A stretch of 64,000 nucleotides of DNA from Acidobacterium sp. (GTDB taxonomy: Bacteria; Acidobacteriota; Vicinamibacteria; Vicinamibacterales; UBA2999): NCBI GenBank assembly GCA_002737365.1, contig NSIL01000001.1:1-64000 (forward strand). The letters run 5' to 3'. The position numbers were made by a program, and so were the translations under genes. The notes below the pieces were generated by a model that was given only the letters and a program-made list of their open reading frames with translations, was not told the DNA's origin and made no database searches. This document shows positions 8,293 through 35,648 of this stretch, piece by piece (the stretch's first letter is position 1; each line of letters opens with the position of its first letter).

Positions 8293-9033
8293 CTACCGGG
8301 CGCGCATAAACAGCCCGAGCGTCAGCACGATCCCGATTGCAATCACACCGATCCTCAACAACTGCTCGTTGACGCGCGGCAGCAGCCACACGCCCATCAG
8401 TCCCCCGCAAATACCGCCGGCGCCGAGCACCGCGGCGTGACGCCAATGCACATCACTTGAAAAGACGAAGATGAGCACGGCCGAGAAATTCATCGCCACC
8501 GCCAGCGCGTTCTTCGTCGCCGAGGCGCTCCTCACCGGCAGGCCCGCGACGGTTAATACCGCCAGCATCAGGAAGCCGATGCCGCCGCCGAAGTAGCCGC
8601 CGTAGATGGCGATGGCAAACTGGGCGGCCGCGGCGGCCAGGGGGTTGAGCGTCCGGGTGCCCTCTACCGGCTCCCGGATGAACGAGCCCCAGCAGAACAC
8701 GGCCGTCGCAAACAGCACCAGCCACGGCACGAGGCCGGCGAAAAAGGTCGGCGGCGTCGCCAGTAGCAGCAGCGCGCCGGCAATGCCGCCGACGAGACTG
8801 ACGATAAAAAGGGTCCTGAACGACAGCCCCTCGGCCCCAGTGGCCATACCGCGGCCGGCGTAGCCCGTCGCCATCTGCCCCGGAAACAGCGCCATCGTCG
8901 AGGTAATGTTCGCCGCGCGTGGGTCGAGGCCCGCGATCACCAGCATCCCGAGAGTGACGAACGAGCCGCCACCGGCAAGCGCATTCTGCGCACCCGCAAC
9001 GGTACCGGCGAGGAAGATCAGGAGCCACAGCAT
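8293..9033 (-). CDS. Sulfite exporter TauE/SafE-family permease
   Basis: This 246-aa inner-membrane protein has about seven to eight hydrophobic helices. The N-terminus (LIFLAGTVAGAQNALAGGG followed by SFVTLGML) and the mid-protein repeat GGYFGGGIGFLMLAVL are the two half-repeats of the TauE/SafE family, which moves small anions such as sulfite, sulfoacetate or related sulfur compounds. The substrate is not predictable. It converges on the CPXCG gene with 5 bases between stops, and tRNA-Leu lies 86 bases upstream on the same strand. Confidence 0.85.
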   Translation of the reverse strand: MLWLLIFLAGTVAGAQNALAGGGSFVTLGMLVIAGLDPRAANITSTMALFPGQMATGYAGRGMATGAEGLSFRTLFIVSLVGGIAGALLLLATPPTFFAGLVPWLVLFATAVFCWGSFIREPVEGTRTLNPLAAAAAQFAIAIYGGYFGGGIGFLMLAVLTVAGLPVRSASATKNALAVAMNFSAVLIFVFSSDVHWRHAAVLGAGGICGGLMGVWLLPRVNEQLLRIGVIAIGIVLTLGLFMRAR

Positions 9034-18751: not shown

Positions 18752-20026
18752 ATGACGATCGAGAGGCAGACGCTCGGCAAGGTGCGGTGGCGGCTCATTC
18801 CGTTCCTGTTCCTCCTGTATGTGATCGCGTATCTCGATCGCGTCAACGTTGGCTATGCCGCGCTCGACATGAACCGCGAGCTGGGGTTCAGCGCCGCGGT
18901 CTACGGATTCGGCTCCGGGATCTTCTTCCTCAGCTACACCCTGCTCGAGGTGCCCAGCAACCTGCTGCTGGCGCGGTTTGGCGCGCGCCGCTGGATCGCC
19001 CGCATCATGATCACCTGGGGCCTGGTCTCGATGGCCACGGTGTTCGTGGACACGCCGCTCTCGTTCTACCTGTTGCGCTTTATCCTCGGCGCGGCTGAAG
19101 CCGGATTCTTCCCCGGTTTGATTCTCTACCTGACCTACTGGTTTCCCGCCCGTGAACGCGCGCGTGCCGTCGCCTTATTCATGACAGCGACTGCCATGGC
19201 CGGCGTGATCGGCGCACCGATCTCCAGCGCCATCCTCCAACTGGATGGCGCCGGTGGCCTGCACGGGTGGCAGTGGCTGTTTATCATCGAAGGCCTGCCT
19301 GCTGTGCTGCTCGCGCCAGTGGTGCTCCGCCGGCTCACCGAACGGCCAGCCGATGCGAAATGGCTGACCGCCGACGAGCGAGACTGGCTGACACGCGAGA
19401 TGGCAAAAGAACTGGAGCATGCACCCGACGTGCACCTCACCCTGAGCACCGCCTTTCGCAGCGGCCGCCTATGGGCCCTCTCCGCCCTCTATTTCTGCAT
19501 CGTCATGGCCTTCTACGGCGTGAGCTTCTGGCTGCCGCAGATCGTGCAGGCGACCGGTGGGCTCAGCTCGTCGACGGTCATCCTGCTCACGGCCATCCCG
19601 TATGTGGCGGCGACGGTTGGACTGGTGGTGATCGGATCGCGCTCAGACGCGAAGGCCGAACGGCGCTGGCACGTCGCGGTGCCGTGCCTGATTGGCGCGG
19701 CAGGATTCGTGCTCACGGTGCTCGCGCCGCAGACCGCGATCGCGTCACTCGCCATGCTGTCGATCGCCGCCTTCGGTATTTGGGGTGCCCTGGGACCGTT
19801 CTGGGCCATGCCCACCGCATTCCTGCGCGGCACGGCGGCCGCCGGGGGAATTGCCATCGTCAATTCGATCGGCAACATCGGCGGCTTCGCGGGACCGTTC
19901 GCGATTGGCTGGGTGCGCGATGCGACCGGCGGCTTCGGGGGCGGACTGCTCGCCCTGGCTGCCGTGCTGGTCGTCGGAGCGGTGATTGCGCTCAGCCTGC
20001 CGGCGGCGCCTTCAACTGGGCGGTAG
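18752..20026 (+). CDS. MFS transporter, anion:cation symporter type
   Basis: This 424-aa inner-membrane protein has about 12 helices. The N-terminus RWRLIPFLFLLYVIAYLDRVNVGYAAL and the segment LRFILGAAEAGFFPGLILYLTYWFP match the ACS family (phthalate, tartrate and glucarate transporters), which import organic acids with protons or sodium. It follows the leucine operon by 34 bases on the same strand, so it may import a related branched-chain or organic acid, but the substrate is not predictable. No ribosome site is obvious ahead of its ATG. Confidence 0.85.
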   Translation: MTIERQTLGKVRWRLIPFLFLLYVIAYLDRVNVGYAALDMNRELGFSAAVYGFGSGIFFLSYTLLEVPSNLLLARFGARRWIARIMITWGLVSMATVFVDTPLSFYLLRFILGAAEAGFFPGLILYLTYWFPARERARAVALFMTATAMAGVIGAPISSAILQLDGAGGLHGWQWLFIIEGLPAVLLAPVVLRRLTERPADAKWLTADERDWLTREMAKELEHAPDVHLTLSTAFRSGRLWALSALYFCIVMAFYGVSFWLPQIVQATGGLSSSTVILLTAIPYVAATVGLVVIGSRSDAKAERRWHVAVPCLIGAAGFVLTVLAPQTAIASLAMLSIAAFGIWGALGPFWAMPTAFLRGTAAAGGIAIVNSIGNIGGFAGPFAIGWVRDATGGFGGGLLALAAVLVVGAVIALSLPAAPSTGR

Positions 20027-22999: not shown

Positions 23000-23028
23000 C
23001 AGCCAAAGTGAGGCGTCTCAATGTGGTG

Positions 23029-23044
23029 TCCGGCTTTAGCCGGA
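23029..23044. repeat. CTTTAG-centred palindrome, copy 1
   Basis: TCCGGCTTTAGCCGGA is a near-perfect palindrome between the peroxiredoxin and FN3-protein stops. The same word recurs at 25546-25561 and, with one outer base changed, in galT at 33776-33793. Confidence 0.75.
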
Positions 23045-23045
23045 T

Positions 23046-24557
23046 TTACGGGTTCAGTAACACTGCCGCCACGGCGATCGGCGCAATCGCACCGTCGGTG
23101 ATCGTGACGTACATCACCTGCAGGTTCGGGTCCCCGGTGGGCGTTAGGAAGTGGTAGTCGTCGATATACCCTTCGGCCCGCGCATCCATCTGGTCGCTGT
23201 TCGGCCACAGGAACACCACATCACGTGCGGAGGTTTGCGCTTCCCAATCCTCGAAATCGACGATGCCAGCCGCACCCGAGACGGATCCATCCGCGTAGAT
23301 CAACTTCTTGGGGCCAAGGAATGGAAAGTTGCCGGAGGTGGCTCGCCCGTCGGTGATCGAGGGATCACCGTAGTAGAGGCGATAGCGGGCTCCGCCGCTG
23401 TGAAACGGGAACGCCGCCTGGGCGCTCGTGAATAGTTTCGGGCAACCGTTGTCGCGGTACTGCACCACCCACTTCACGCCATCCCACACCGCGTAGCCGT
23501 GGTTCTGCTGGACGTCGGAACAGCCAGTCACGCGGTCTGAGGTGAAGACCATGAACGAGCCCACCGACATGTCCCAATGCGGCGAATCGAGCGTTGGCCA
23601 CGCCACCTTGAACTGGCGCGAGTGGGTGATCTTGCTGTTGCCGTTGACGTCGCCATCGACCGGGATCGCCACGGTGGGCTCGCAGCCACCACCAGGTGAG
23701 TAGTCGGCCGCAGTGGTGCAGGTGGCCGCGGCGCCGGCATTGAAGTCGAGCCCGTAATAGCCGTCCTTGCTGTCGATCCACATCGCGCGCGTGCGGCCGT
23801 CAGCGCCTTGCGCCTCGAAGAACAGGCGGACAAATCCCCCCTTGTCGCGGGTCACGGGAACCCCCTGCCCGGTGTTCATGTTGGTCACAAGTGTGGCGGA
23901 GGTCGCCGGGGCGGTCAGCCCGCTCGATCCCGCGCGGCTGGTAAAGGTCAGGTAACTATCGGGGTTGGTGGCGATCGCCGCGGTCGACGCCACCGCCACC
24001 GCCAACTGCGATTGCCGGTTAGTTGTCGACGTGGGCATAGGGCCGTAATACAGATGGATACGGTTCGCCATGGCACCCGCATCTGGCCCAAAGCGCGTCG
24101 CGCTCAGACGGGCATTGCCATCGCTCACGATCTTCGTCAATCGATCGACGGTGTTGCCAGTCCCGCGGAACTGCCAGTACTCGGTGTCGGTCTCCGCGCT
24201 GACGCTGCTCGCGACGCTCGATTGTGTGCAGGCCTCGTTGCGGCACGCCGTCACCACGACGGCATAGGTGGTCAAGGCCTTCAAGCCGGTCAGGGTCAGG
24301 CTCGTGGCCGAGGACGCCGCCGACGCCTTCACCTGGGTGCCCTGCGCCGTATCTCGGCCGACGATCTCGAAGTGGTGGGTCTGGTCGCCGCTTCCGGGAG
24401 CCCAGGTCACGACCAATTGAGACGAGGAAAAGACCTGACGGCTGCCGACGGTCACGGCACCGGTCCTGGCGACGCGGACCTCGCCCGGCGCCGCACCAAC
24501 CCTCACGGCGGTGGTCAACAACAGCCCGATGAGAAGGGTAATGGTGAAGTGGTGCAT
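23046..24557 (-). CDS. Secreted fibronectin type III domain protein, unknown function
   Basis: This 503-aa protein starts at the ATG at 24557 (MHHFTITLLIGLLLTTAVRVGA), which opens a signal peptide; an in-frame extension upstream is not needed. Residues about 25-115 form one fibronectin type III domain (SSQLVVTWAPGSGDQTHHFEIVGRD, LTGLKALTTYAVVVTACRN). The remainder is a long strand-rich module with DGDVNGNSKITHSRQF and SVGSFMVFTSDRVTGC that I do not recognise. It is likely extracellular or periplasmic. It is divergent from the dienelactone hydrolase gene. Confidence 0.65.
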   Translation of the reverse strand: MHHFTITLLIGLLLTTAVRVGAAPGEVRVARTGAVTVGSRQVFSSSQLVVTWAPGSGDQTHHFEIVGRDTAQGTQVKASAASSATSLTLTGLKALTTYAVVVTACRNEACTQSSVASSVSAETDTEYWQFRGTGNTVDRLTKIVSDGNARLSATRFGPDAGAMANRIHLYYGPMPTSTTNRQSQLAVAVASTAAIATNPDSYLTFTSRAGSSGLTAPATSATLVTNMNTGQGVPVTRDKGGFVRLFFEAQGADGRTRAMWIDSKDGYYGLDFNAGAAATCTTAADYSPGGGCEPTVAIPVDGDVNGNSKITHSRQFKVAWPTLDSPHWDMSVGSFMVFTSDRVTGCSDVQQNHGYAVWDGVKWVVQYRDNGCPKLFTSAQAAFPFHSGGARYRLYYGDPSITDGRATSGNFPFLGPKKLIYADGSVSGAAGIVDFEDWEAQTSARDVVFLWPNSDQMDARAEGYIDDYHFLTPTGDPNLQVMYVTITDGAIAPIAVAAVLLNP

Positions 24558-25530: not shown

Positions 25531-25545
25531 GGACCCCATGTAGCG

Positions 25546-25561
25546 TCCGGCTTTAGCCGGA
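25546..25561. repeat. CTTTAG-centred palindrome, copy 2
   Basis: This TCCGGCTTTAGCCGGA is identical to copy 1 and preceded by GTAGCG, the same flank seen (as GTAGCC) in the galT copy. It lies 16 bases after the dienelactone hydrolase stop. Confidence 0.75.
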
Positions 25562-25577
25562 CCTCGTCAGAAGAAAA

Positions 25578-32383: not shown

Positions 32384-32549
32384 ACCTCAACGCCGGCAGG
32401 ACCCTCGCAGATCTTTACCCACAGCGTCGTAGTTGCCCACGGCGGCTCCGGGGCGGCAGAAGAGCCGCCCTGGTGGCTACGGTTGGCTACGGTCACGACC
32501 AGCCGAGAAGCCGCGCAGGTGCGCGGCGAGCGTTTTTATTAAGAAAGGT
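32384..32549. other. Non-coding stretch before the tRNA pair
   Basis: No gene is seen in these 166 bases. It contains a GC-rich hairpin-like patch (GGCGGCTCC...GGAGCCGCC type words near 32440-32470) and a TTTTTATTAAG run at 32532 that could end leftward tRNA transcription. Confidence 0.4.
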
Positions 32550-32623
<74 letters not shown>

Positions 32624-32706
32624 GCTCGGACTTGCTAATGCTAGTTGAGAATGGTGCGTGGGGTCGACTGGGGGGCGGTCATTCGACGATTGGGGGATGC
32701 AAAAGT

Positions 32707-32781
32707 TGGAGCGGGAAACGGGATTCGAACCCGCGACTTCGACCTTGGCAAGGTCGCACTCTACCACTGAGTTATTCCCGC
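32707..32781 (-). tRNA. tRNA-Gly (GCC)
   Basis: Acceptor GCGGGAA/TTCCCGC, discriminator T, encoded CCA, anticodon loop TTGCCAA (anticodon GCC) closed by GACC/GGTC, and T-loop TTCGAAT. Confidence 0.96.
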
Positions 32782-32850
32782 TCGCCGAGAACAACCCACT
32801 GTAACAGATGGCTAGCGCGACAGGCAAGCGTTCTGGGCCGTCGGCCGGAC

Positions 32851-33891
32851 CTAAAGGTCAGGCCCCACAGGCTTTACACCCCGCAGGACCCTCGCCGCCT
32901 CCTCCGGAGACACCGGGTTACGAGGAATGCCAGTCCCCCACTCGAGCCCGCTCCACCGGGTCACCCGCGGGATGACCTCCAGGTGCCAGTGGAACGCCAG
33001 ATCGGCATCCCCGCTGAAGGGCGCGGTGTGGAGCACCAGGTTGTAGGCCGGCCGCCCGAGCGCCCAATCCACCCGGGCCATCACGTCCTTCAGAACGACG
33101 GACATCGCTTCAAGGGTGGCGTCGGACGCCTCGTCGAACCTCGCCGCATGCTCGCCGGGCATGAGCCAGGTCTCAAACGGCACGCGCGAGGCAAACGGGG
33201 TGATGGCAATTACTGGAAGGGTGTCTGACACCGTGCGCCGGCCATCACGCAACCCCTGCTCGGTCATGTCGCAGAAAATGCAATGGCCCGTGTGGCCGAG
33301 GTGGGCCGCGGCCCCACGCACTTTTTCATCAAGGGCCGCGGGGACGATCGGGTACGCCGCGATCTGCGAATGGGCGTGGTCCATCCGGGCACCGGCGGCC
33401 CGTCCGTGATTCTTGAACACGATCGCGGTGGCAAATCTTGCGTCCTGTTTCAGATCCTGCAACCGCGTGCGCCAGGCCCAGAGCACCCGCCACAGGCGAT
33501 CGACTGGCAGATTCTGCAATGGCTGGTCGTGCACCGGCGTCTCGATGACCACTTCATGCGCGCCCAGACCGTCGCGGGTCTCGAAGACGCCGTCGATGCG
33601 GCGGTCCAGGCCTCCCTCGATGCGCAGCATGGGACGCCGGTTGGCAACGACCCGCACGGACCATCCCGGCGTATTGGTATGACTACCCTCGCGCCACGCC
33701 AACAGCTCCGGTCCGGCCTCGCCTTCCCTGCCTTCGCAGAAGGCGCAGGCTGCCTCCACTTCGGTGACCTCAGAGCTCCGGCTAAAGCCGGAGGCTACTC
33801 CGTCATCAAAGTCGTTGGGATGCAGAGGCGAGAGATCGATCACGACCGAACGGCCGGTGATCGGGTCGCGCCGAAGCTCGGTGGTTACCAT
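32851..33891 (-). CDS. galT: Galactose-1-phosphate uridylyltransferase
   Basis: This 346-aa protein starts at the ATG at 33891 (MVTTELRRDPITGRSVVI). HIT-superfamily signatures: CAFCEGREGE and CIFCDMTEQG (metal-site CxxC motifs), NRRPMLRIEGG, HEVVIETPVHD, and the catalytic histidine motif FKNHGRAAGARMDHAHSQI (HxHxQ) near residue 170. It swaps UMP between UDP-glucose and galactose-1-phosphate in the Leloir pathway. The N-terminal loop VASGFSRSSE between HPNDF and CAFC is translated from a CTTTAG palindrome. It overlaps the yraN stop by 7 bases and is the last gene of a leftward block. Confidence 0.88.
   Translation of the reverse strand: MVTTELRRDPITGRSVVIDLSPLHPNDFDDGVASGFSRSSEVTEVEAACAFCEGREGEAGPELLAWREGSHTNTPGWSVRVVANRRPMLRIEGGLDRRIDGVFETRDGLGAHEVVIETPVHDQPLQNLPVDRLWRVLWAWRTRLQDLKQDARFATAIVFKNHGRAAGARMDHAHSQIAAYPIVPAALDEKVRGAAAHLGHTGHCIFCDMTEQGLRDGRRTVSDTLPVIAITPFASRVPFETWLMPGEHAARFDEASDATLEAMSVVLKDVMARVDWALGRPAYNLVLHTAPFSGDADLAFHWHLEVIPRVTRWSGLEWGTGIPRNPVSPEEAARVLRGVKPVGPDL
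33776..33793. repeat. CTTTAG-centred palindrome inside galT, copy 3
   Basis: CTCCGGCTAAAGCCGGAG is a perfect 8-2-8 palindrome. Read on the galT strand with its GTAGCC flank it encodes VASGFSRS in frame, a surface-loop insertion relative to other GalT proteins. Confidence 0.75.
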
Positions 33892-34262
33892 CCGGGCCGG
33901 AACGCGTCCTTGTAGACTGTGATGCGCGCCGGCTGGCACGAGGCGTCCACCGACACCACGTCGAAGCGGCACGGCGTCGCATGCAGCGCGTGGCCACTGA
34001 CGTACTCCTCGGCCATCGAGACCAGTCGTCGCTGTTTCTGCAGGGTGACCATCTCGGCTGGATCGCCAAAGCGGCTATCGGTCTTGGTCTTCACTTCCAC
34101 AAATACTACCGTTGCCTCGTCCCGAGCGATGAGGTCGATCTCGCCAAAGCGGGAACGATAGCGCCGATCGAGTATCTGATACCCGAGTCGCTCGAGCTCG
34201 GTGCTGGCAATGTCTTCGCCATAGAGGCCTAGTTGCTGGCGGGCGTAGGTCATGGCGGCCAC
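33885..34262 (-). CDS. yraN: UPF0102/YraN-family endonuclease-like protein
   Basis: This 125-aa protein has the YraN restriction-endonuclease-like fold: GLYGEDIASTELERLGYQILDRRYR, then FGEIDLIARDEATVVFVEVKTK, with the acidic Glu-Asp-Glu-x-Lys metal site (GEIDLI ... FVEVK). The family is near-universal in bacteria and thought to be a nuclease, but its role is undefined. It overlaps galT by 7 bases. Upstream, between it and the aminotransferase stop, lies the GGCAGCACT palindrome. Confidence 0.9.
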   Translation of the reverse strand: MAAMTYARQQLGLYGEDIASTELERLGYQILDRRYRSRFGEIDLIARDEATVVFVEVKTKTDSRFGDPAEMVTLQKQRRLVSMAEEYVSGHALHATPCRFDVVSVDASCQPARITVYKDAFRPGW

Positions 34263-34297
34263 AAAGCAATCGCGGTGCCAACTTGGCGGTCAAATCC

Positions 34298-34317
34298 GGC
34301 AGCACTAAAGTGCTGCC
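34298..34317. repeat. CTTTAG-centred palindrome, longer relative
   Basis: GGCAGCACT-AA-AGTGCTGCC is a perfect 9-2-9 palindrome in the 66-base gap between the aminotransferase stop and the yraN start. It shares the CTAAAG/CTTTAG centre with the TCCGG copies but has different arms. It could end the aminotransferase transcript. Confidence 0.7.
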
Positions 34318-34328
34318 CTCCCGGCATC

Positions 34329-35632
34329 TTAGACGGTCGACAATGCCTGGTCGATGATCTCGACGGCGGTCGTCGCCTGCGCCTTGGTCAGCACCAGCGG
34401 CGGCGACAGGCGGATGGCGTTCTTGCCGGCACCGAGCACCAGCAGGCCGCGCGCGAAGCACGCCTCCACCACCTTGTCGCGCTCGACGATGGCGCGTTCC
34501 TTGGTGACGCGGTCCTTCACGAGCTCGATACCGATCATCAAACCGCGCCCGCGCACGTCACCGACGATGGCGTGCTTCTGCTGGACTTCTTTGAGGCGAT
34601 CCATCATGAACGCGCCGACCTCGGCGGCGTTCTTCATCAGCGAATCCTTCAGCAGTCCGATGGTCGCCAGCGCTGCGGCGCACGACACCGGATTGCCGCC
34701 GAAGGTGCTGGCGTGCGAACCCGGCGGCCAATCCATCACCTCGGCCCGCGCCGTCGTCACGCCCAGCGGCAGCCCGGAAGCCACGCCCTTGGCCACCGTC
34801 ACCATGTCGGGCTCGATGCCGAAATGCTCAATGCCGAACATCTTGCCGGTGCGGCCCATGCCCGACTGCACTTCATCGGCAATCAACAGGATGCCGTGCT
34901 TCTTCGTCAGCGCGCGCAGCCGCTCGTGGAACTGCGGGGCGGGCACGACGTAGCCGCCCTCGCCCTGAATCGACTCCACTACCACGCCGGCGACTTCGTC
35001 CGGCGAGATCAGGTGGACGAGGATTTGTTGCTCGAGGAAGTCCAGGCACTCCGCGTGGCATGACTCGGGCTTGAGACCAACCGGACACCGGTAGCACGTC
35101 GCATACGGGGTATGAAAGGTTCCCGCCTGCATGGGGCCGAACCCCTGGCGCTGGATCGCCCGGCTCGACGTCAGCGCCAACGACCCCAGCGTGCGGCCGT
35201 GGAAGCTACCGAGGAACGCGATCATCCCGTAGCGCTTCGTGGAGTAGCGCGCCAGCTTGATCGCCGCTTCAATCGCTTCCGTCCCTGAGTTCGAAAAGAA
35301 CGATCGCTTCTGGCCGCTGAACGGCGCGATCTCGTTAAACGCCTCGCCGAGCGCCACCTGCGGCTCGTAGTAGAAGTCCGTGCCAGACATGTGCAGGAAT
35401 TTCTGCGCCTGATCGACGATGGCGGCAACGACGAGGGGGTGGGAGTAGCCGGTGGAGTTGACGGCAATGCCGGCGGCGCAATCGAGGAACACGTTGCCGT
35501 CGACGTCTTCGACGACTGCACCATTACCACGCGCCATCACAAACGGATAGCTGCGGGTATAGGACGAGGACACGACCTTGCCGTCGCGCTCGATGATGGC
35601 CTTGGCCTTGGGGCCGGGCAACGCCGTTCGTA

Positions 35633-35648
<16 letters not shown>
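34329..35648 (-). CDS. Class III PLP aminotransferase (acetylornithine/GABA aminotransferase family)
   Basis: This 439-aa aminotransferase has the class III signature LLIADEVQSGMGRTGKMFGIEHFGIEPD near residues 255-285, followed by the PLP-lysine in VTVAKGVASGLPLGV. GSFHGRTLGSLALTSS and FFSNSGTEAIEAAIKLARY form the cofactor cup. A cysteine-rich insert (YATCYRCPVGLKPESCHAECLDFLEQQI) near 190 is typical of the archaeal/acidobacterial acetylornithine-type group with broad omega-amino acid activity. GABA, ornithine or another omega-amine could be the donor. It overlaps the cysS stop by 16 bases. Confidence 0.85.

Follow-up and report, generated by a model that had tools for sequence, protein, structure and literature searches.

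A translated palindrome in GalT

How a palindromic sequence that recurs elsewhere in the genome came to be translated inside a galactose-1-phosphate uridylyltransferase is the question raised by galT in the 64,000-nucleotide stretch of acidobacterial DNA analysed here (the window). The first-pass annotation had located the word TCCGGCTTTAGCCGGA at three places, one of them in galT, and had proposed a REP-like element able to enter protein loops without breaking the frame. All three occurrences are exact (Table 1), and the 24 nucleotides GTAGCCTCCGGCTTTAGCCGGAGC in galT are indeed translated as VASGFSRS, between the HPNDF and CAFC motifs.

The product of galT scores above the cut-offs of Pfam GalP_UDP_transf and GalP_UDP_tr_C and matches PDB entry 1z84 with an E-value of 1.6e-53, and the gene starts at an ATG that overlaps the upstream gene's stop codon. 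An open reading frame that our home-made gene caller placed on the wrong strand over galT was overruled by homology. The loop holding the repeat directly precedes a CxxC motif, which is retained.

Searching the 43 genomes of the same taxonomic family (the source genome included) gave a galT match in 29. With the query excluded, and a distant paralogue (L053) and a C-terminal fragment (L055) left out of the loop comparison, the insert was absent from 25 of the 27 orthologues that show the loop, as the repeat reading had predicted. Orthologues differ from one another in the length and sequence of this loop. The net gain is about seven residues rather than a clean eight, and the aligned loop of the closest solved relative, 1z84, is six residues shorter. 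Finding the same loop sequence in GalT proteins of unrelated bacteria had been named as the outcome that would speak against a repeat insertion; the comparison did not refute it. In G007, GTGGCGTCCGGCGTTAGCCGGACC is read as VASGVSRT about five codons further on than the insert studied here, and in G008 a different palindrome, GGCGGGCTTTCGGACCCGCC, is read as GGLSDPP in the same loop. Because place and sequence differ, the three inserts suggest separate insertions; the exact insertion points and any target duplication are unreadable because the loop flanks have diverged. The full 24-mer with its head also recurs outside galT in the source genome, at L012 and L017. Judging from these alignments, the galT copy is most likely a REP insertion that added about eight residues to a GalT loop with the frame intact. 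With the rest of the protein conserved, GalT probably still works, and the insert may be neutral.

Translation of galT stops at the TAG in the centre of another palindrome, this one GTGG-headed; behind galT of G007 stands a perfect counterpart. As a separate observation, 623 bases at the end of a G008 contig (C85, L091, positions 8322-8943) are 98% identical to window positions 32544-33166, covering the 3' part of galT; the neighbouring gene is 79% identical, and on another G008 contig the identity across galT and the adjoining genes is about 86%. The match stems from recent interspecies recombination or from a chimeric assembly.

Table 1. Genes and palindromic elements discussed in the text, in window coordinates.
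Feature	Position	Strand	Basis or remark
Core 16-mer TCCGGCTTTAGCCGGA	23029-23044	+	exact match
Core 16-mer TCCGGCTTTAGCCGGA	25546-25561	+	exact match
Core 16-mer TCCGGCTTTAGCCGGA	33777-33792	-	exact match, inside galT
Family A REP GTGGTG-TCCGGCTTTAGCCGGA	23023..23046	+	3' of peroxiredoxin gene (stop ends 23011)
Family A REP GTAGCG-TCCGGCTTTAGCCGGA-CC	25540..25563	+	3' of dienelactone hydrolase gene (stop ends 25530)
GTGG-headed palindrome GTGGGGCCTGACCTTTAGGTCCGGCC	32843..32868	-	one mismatch; 3' end of galT
galT, galactose-1-phosphate uridylyltransferase family, 346 aa	32851..33891	-	ORF, Pfam, PDB
Family A REP GTAGCC-TCCGGCTTTAGCCGGA-GC	33775..33798	-	24 nt, in frame inside galT
UPF0102 gene upstream of galT	33885..34262	-	Pfam PF02021, 100.1 bits
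Family C REP, stem GGCAGCACTTTAGTGCTGCC at 34298-34317	34298..34331	-	worn head reaching aminotransferase TAA stop
Class III aminotransferase gene	34329..35648	-	Pfam PF00202

Families of GTRG-headed hairpins

The source genome (3,053,113 bases, 3.05 Mb) holds 23 copies of TCCGGCTTTAGCCGGA and 0 of the reversed pattern used as a control. A strict GTRG stands at the expected place in 21 of the 23, the one-letter variants being ATGG (L004) and GTAT (L023), and the consensus around the cores, taken by eye, is ATGTRGCG on the 5' side and CC on the 3' side. From the flanks of these copies, the unit has a GTRG foot followed, one or two bases on, by a stem of 7-8 bp with a TT or TC loop; its formula is GTRGYN-TCCGGCT-TY-AGCCGGA-C, and a footed hairpin written out is GTAGCG-TCCGGCTTTAGCCGGAC. 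Direct pairing gives the 7-8 bp stem with a two-base loop, and RNA folding a 7 bp stem with a four-base loop. The CTTTAG/CTAAAG centre, rightly ascribed by the first-pass annotation to every palindrome it listed, is this loop with its closing pairs. With the right arm left free in the search, the arms of this unit (family A below) pair at the tested position in 27/29 contexts in the source genome and in 39/39 in its relatives, C-G swaps included. A degenerate headed pattern (37 copies in the source genome, 146 in G002, 218 in G007 and 288 in G036) is present in 23 of the 43 family genomes and has a reversed count of 0 in all of them. Foot, stem and counts against this control thus bear out the proposed REP-like nature of the element. 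Strict copies are mostly single in the source genome, where an 831 kb sample contains two close pairs; further pairs have one degenerate partner.

Chance does not account for these numbers. When up to three mismatches to TCCGGCTTTAGCCGGA were allowed, the window gave seven matches, namely the three exact places on both strands and a weak site at 19090, against 0.38 expected per shuffled window. GTRG-headed stems with arms of at least 7 number five in the window (the three TCCGGCTTTAGCCGGA copies and, with other centres, 48403 and 49315), compared with 0.8 on average, and never more than 2, across 20 Markov copies. In the sample (830,636 bases: contigs C1, C12 and C23, the first 180 kb of C34, and the window) there are 57 such stems, 26 of them CTTYAG-centred, versus 9 in one Markov copy. 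CTTTAG/CTAAAG occurs 57 times in the sample, 18 times with at least five perfectly paired bases per side, and 66 times in one Markov copy, never with such pairing; for CTTCAG/CTGAAG the same flank pairing was seen 20 times versus 0.

Most of the 43 CTTYAG palindromes in the sample with at least four outer pairs sort by eye into three families: A, GTRGYN-TCCGSCTTYAGSCGGA; B, GTGG-[CG]GACAAACCTTYAGGTTTGTC[CG]; and C, AGTAGTGCCAGRAG-GGCRGCACTTYAGTGCYGCC and relatives. Fixed patterns count 15, 9 and 11 members, respectively (35 elements). Family C arms also covary, 29/30 tested cells pairing with the right arm left free, C-G for G-C swaps included. The palindrome at 34298-34317, an exact GGCAGCACTAAAGTGCTGCC that had been called a longer relative of TCCGGCTTTAGCCGGA, shares the centre of the TCCGGCTTTAGCCGGA copies and belongs to this second family (C) rather than being a longer copy of the first word. 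A single family for all CTTTAG palindromes was rejected, there being at least three arm and head families.

Other translated copies

Of the 35 elements in the sample, eight are intragenic and away from called ends: the galT copy, C1:113064, C23:184034, C23:183426, C12:172480, C23:9880, C12:182165 and C34:18537. The internal status of the galT copy comes from homology and that of the other seven from the home-made gene caller, C23:183426 lying near the likely true start of its gene; the caller put 13/35 elements in called genes, of which four within the first 17 codons and a C-terminal copy were not counted as internal. Orthologues were compared for copies other than C1:113064, C12:182165, C34:18537 and the C-terminal C34:12522.

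An S9 peptidase gene (C23:182933-185485) contains an in-frame inverted REP pair, read as EVRLKANTTSGGNVVSGFSRT. The pair is cleanly absent in G008, G005, G001, G006, G004 and G003, and G002 has three REP units at the same site. In G007 (L146, about 1500-1520) the two halves of the gene are in different frames and meet in the junction GACGTC-GACC-AATCCC at the site of the pair, where the four-base remnant matches the tail of the repeat. The junction looks as if the pair had been lost imprecisely, its last bases being left as a scar; alternatively, it may be an assembly error. A second REP in the S9 gene, of family B, lies near the likely start, probably in the signal-peptide region, and is absent in the seven congeners aligned there (G007 not among them). 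Insertion is less clear in two further proteins because their loops vary in all comparable congeners. One is an SMC protein with a perfect family B palindrome in its hinge, a loop that varies among the congeners compared (G004 and G008 gave no loop). The other is a molybdopterin-binding protein with a family B copy in a loop that is similar in G006 (GGDKPLGLS) and G001 and different in other congeners; the congener tblastn segments showed no clean presence or absence at this loop.

The galT copy and the S9 pair of the source genome both keep the frame. GTGG-headed copies have a stop in 2/6 frames and GTAG-headed copies in 3/6. As open frames are common and the G007 S9 frame is broken, frame keeping is more simply attributed to survivorship than to the element itself.

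RAYT-type transposase genes in related genomes

The associated RAYT-type transposase that the first-pass annotation had suggested looking for exists in sister species as a REP-flanked gene, and none of that type was found in the source genome. In G008, family A REPs stand on either side of a Y1 gene of 167 residues, which lies between a presumably serA-like gene and one other gene. Its product scores 37.4 bits against Y1_Tnp (cut-off 23) and contains FMPDHLHML and YLLENPVRAGL, which we take to be the HUH and tyrosine motifs. For the G002 orthologue (76% identity), one flank carries a strict REP and the other degenerate-headed REPs, and a RAYT-type gene in G018 is preceded by three family A REPs and followed by two. 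The G008/G002 protein therefore has the marks of a RAYT, namely an HUH motif (on our reading), a Y1 domain and a REP-flanked gene, and such a repeat-flanked RAYT, or REPtron, is seen in G008, G018 and G002.

The source genome, which is 97% complete, yielded neither a REPtron nor a RAYT of the G008 type at E 1e-10, and its spacer at the corresponding position is 12 bases long and without a gene; the agent is therefore not demonstrated there. Y1_Tnp genes occur in 32 of the 43 family genomes, and the source genome has one (C21:7136-7744). It reaches 64.8 bits against NCBIfam REP_Tyr_transpos, below the cut-off of 80, and its 3.3 kb locus contains no CTTYAG palindrome and no GTRG hairpin, so it was rejected as the cognate agent. 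At the position of the G008/G002 RAYT, G001 (L226) has a 332-base spacer rich in short repeats of the CGATTGACGATTG type.

The G008 RAYT has 34 matches in 18 genomes, and 30 were examined as loci. A GTRG-headed hairpin lies within 400 bases at 19 of the 30 (a raw count, without a shuffled control); hairpin arms differ among these loci, and the centre is often the same CTTYAG. At least five family A copies are found in 13/18 genomes with a RAYT relative versus 4/25 without (Fisher p 0.0004), and at least one in 14/18 versus 9/25 (p 0.012), the thresholds having been picked after the counts were seen and kinship being uncorrected. The source genome is an exception, with 37 family A copies and no G008-type RAYT found; G016, G017 and G021 likewise have at least 17 copies without a RAYT of this type.

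Relation to known repeats

Excerpts of Di Nocera 2013 (PMC3733652) describe GTAG REPs with TY loops, dimers, repeat-supplied stop codons and REP-flanked RAYTs, as well as GTAG REPs inside genes, most of them in Opitutus; translated intragenic REPs were thus reported in 2013. The palindromes described here resemble them in the unpaired GTRG foot, the short stem (7-8 bp here, 5-13 bp in GTAG REPs), the short and often TY loop within a CTTYAG centre, and the dispersal of copies both singly and in pairs, mostly outside and behind genes. They also lie behind stop codons, supply stops, occur inside genes and, in related genomes, flank RAYT-type genes. By home-made gene calls, 22/35 sample elements lie outside called genes, and at 4/11 family C copies the upstream called gene terminates on the TAG within the head. 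They differ from the GTAG REPs listed there in their arms (TCCGGC, TCCGCC and GACAAACC) and in that one family has a 9-base spacer behind GTAG. In the same excerpts, Acidobacteriota are absent from the GTAG hosts, and acidobacterial transposases are assigned to TIR-flanked types. CTTYAG-centred REPs appear in Table 1 of PMC2817692, as excerpted, for H. influenzae (GTAGGGTGGGCTTYAGCCCACC) and Thioalkalivibrio (GTAGGTCGGCCTTCAGGCCGAC). Since these two sources describe GTAG REPs and CTTYAG centres, the class of element is already known and the lineage is new.

Other systems share part of this picture. Like REPINs and BIMEs (Bertels and Rainey 2011, PMC3116915, in excerpt), the repeats form inverted pairs, here translated in the S9 peptidase; unlike them, most strict family A copies of the source genome stand alone. 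As with Rickettsial palindromic elements (RPE), palindromes are translated in frame in unrelated proteins, whereas the excerpted PMC3733652 counts RPE-4 and RPE-6 among CGTC-tagged repeats, a class without a dedicated transposase, and the foot here is GTRG, not CGTC. The Solibacter class 3 TnpA structures are likewise acidobacterial high-copy hairpins near Y1 transposase genes, with a CnGA foot instead of GTRG (PMC6006769, in excerpt). A likeness to Coxiella MITEs, small mobile repeats that become parts of proteins, is suggested by the title of PMC5896051. Palindrome counts for three acidobacterial genomes are given in the excerpted PMC12306157.

Origin and possible use of the palindromes

We estimate at roughly 90% the probability that the palindromes are GTAG-tagged REPs, most likely mobilised by a RAYT-type HUH/Y1 enzyme, and that the galT copy is one such insertion. 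Under this scenario, the RAYT would recognise foot and hairpin on single-stranded DNA and then copy or move the REP, with the REP-flanked RAYT gene persisting in sister species. Many copies lie just behind stop codons; a few would land inside genes, where landings would usually be harmful; copies with an open frame in a tolerant loop would survive and be translated, as VASGFSR or VRLKPDA.

Against this reading stands, at extremely low probability, the view that GalT simply has a variable loop of the ordinary kind here and that the DNA match of its eight residues is coincidental. The variation of the loop in length and sequence among orthologues fits coincidence. The recurrence of the headed 24-mer outside galT and in three named MAGs does not, nor does the expectation of 0.38 core matches per shuffled window at up to three mismatches. 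Spread without a transposase, by gene conversion or template-switch replication at hairpins, would suit the failure to find a cognate RAYT in the source genome and the RAYT-free copies of G016, G017 and G021; it is made improbable by the REP-flanked RAYT genes in genus and family and the co-occurrence of both, and by published REP transposases that cut and rejoin REP sequences, the consensus foot of those REPs being GT[AG]G (PMC6006769, in excerpt).

A further proposal, compatible with mobile origin, concerns use: the palindromes may be retained as RNA elements (terminators, stabilisers of mRNA 3' ends or ribosome-stalling hairpins), with the galT copy as a by-product. Their placement speaks for it. 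The feet of the window's plus-strand copies begin 11 (peroxiredoxin) and 9 (dienelactone hydrolase) bases behind stop codons, 11 bases separate the family C stem from the stop of the aminotransferase gene, and the stems of all three intergenic window copies examined are 11-17 bases behind a stop codon. A lowering of translation is reported for REPs closer than 16 nt to a stop codon (PMC12306157, in excerpt). By home-made gene calls, 19/35 sample stems have a called 3' end within 40 bases. The intragenic galT copy, however, does not fit, and none of the three window copies is followed by four or more T in a row. Turnover in the spacer between the aminotransferase and UPF0102 genes, where palindromes differ or are missing in congeners, also makes it less likely that any one gene needs its palindrome: the source genome has a C element and G002 a C element with compensating arm changes, G007 an A element with another palindrome, G004 an A-like palindrome (in the first 400 of 661 bases), G005 a GTAG-headed GC-rich repeat and G008 no CTTYAG palindrome (G003, with a 2,972-base spacer, was left out). 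We therefore regard retention as RNA elements as possible, with the odds against it, and mobile REPs remain the preferred account of origin, transposition being the probable route and a RAYT the probable agent.

Range and wider meaning

Among 297 genomes sampled from the phylum, nine contain exact TCCGGCTTTAGCCGGA, and all of these belong to the same order. The galT 24-mer has exact matches on seven contigs, which come from three named MAGs: Acidobacteria bacterium Baikal-deep-G12, Acidobacteria bacterium RIFCSPLOWO2_12_FULL_67_14b and one labelled Candidatus Sulfopaludibacter. Judged by the MAGs sharing the exact element, GTAG REPs and REP-flanked RAYT genes are thus extended to an acidobacterial lineage. 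What appears to be new is this lineage's families and, freshest, that a single protein loop has been hit repeatedly across a genus; among the matches listed for open-licence PMC papers, none treats GTAG REPs in this lineage and none reports such repeated hits.

The same protein site is found across sister species with the repeat present, absent, multiplied or lost with a scar, and site comparisons of this kind make REP transposition and the neutrality of translated copies testable. They also carry a warning for annotation: where proteins of this group contain VASGFSRT, VRLKPDAT, GDKPSGLS or similar peptides, these may be translated repeats. It is conceivable, if rather unlikely, that RAYT-driven REPs are a continuing source of small in-frame protein segments in the genus, the same loops (that of GalT before the CxxC motif and one of the S9 peptidase) being hit repeatedly by different REPs, units multiplying within the coding frame and imperfect loss leaving scars; the element's sequence might even be selected for translatability, REP and host gene persisting together.

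Further RAYT-like genes in the genus lie beside hairpins of other types. One in G007 (C2 near 47 kb, L198/L177) is flanked by GTGGAGGCAACCCCTTCTTTGGGGTTGCCT-type hairpins, possibly another REP family of the genus. Others, in G005 (L200), G008 (L212), G007 (L213) and G004 (L214), lie beside GTAGCGACGGCTAAAGCCGTCG-type hairpins, possibly a REP family with the centre CTAAAG rather than CTTTAG behind the foot.
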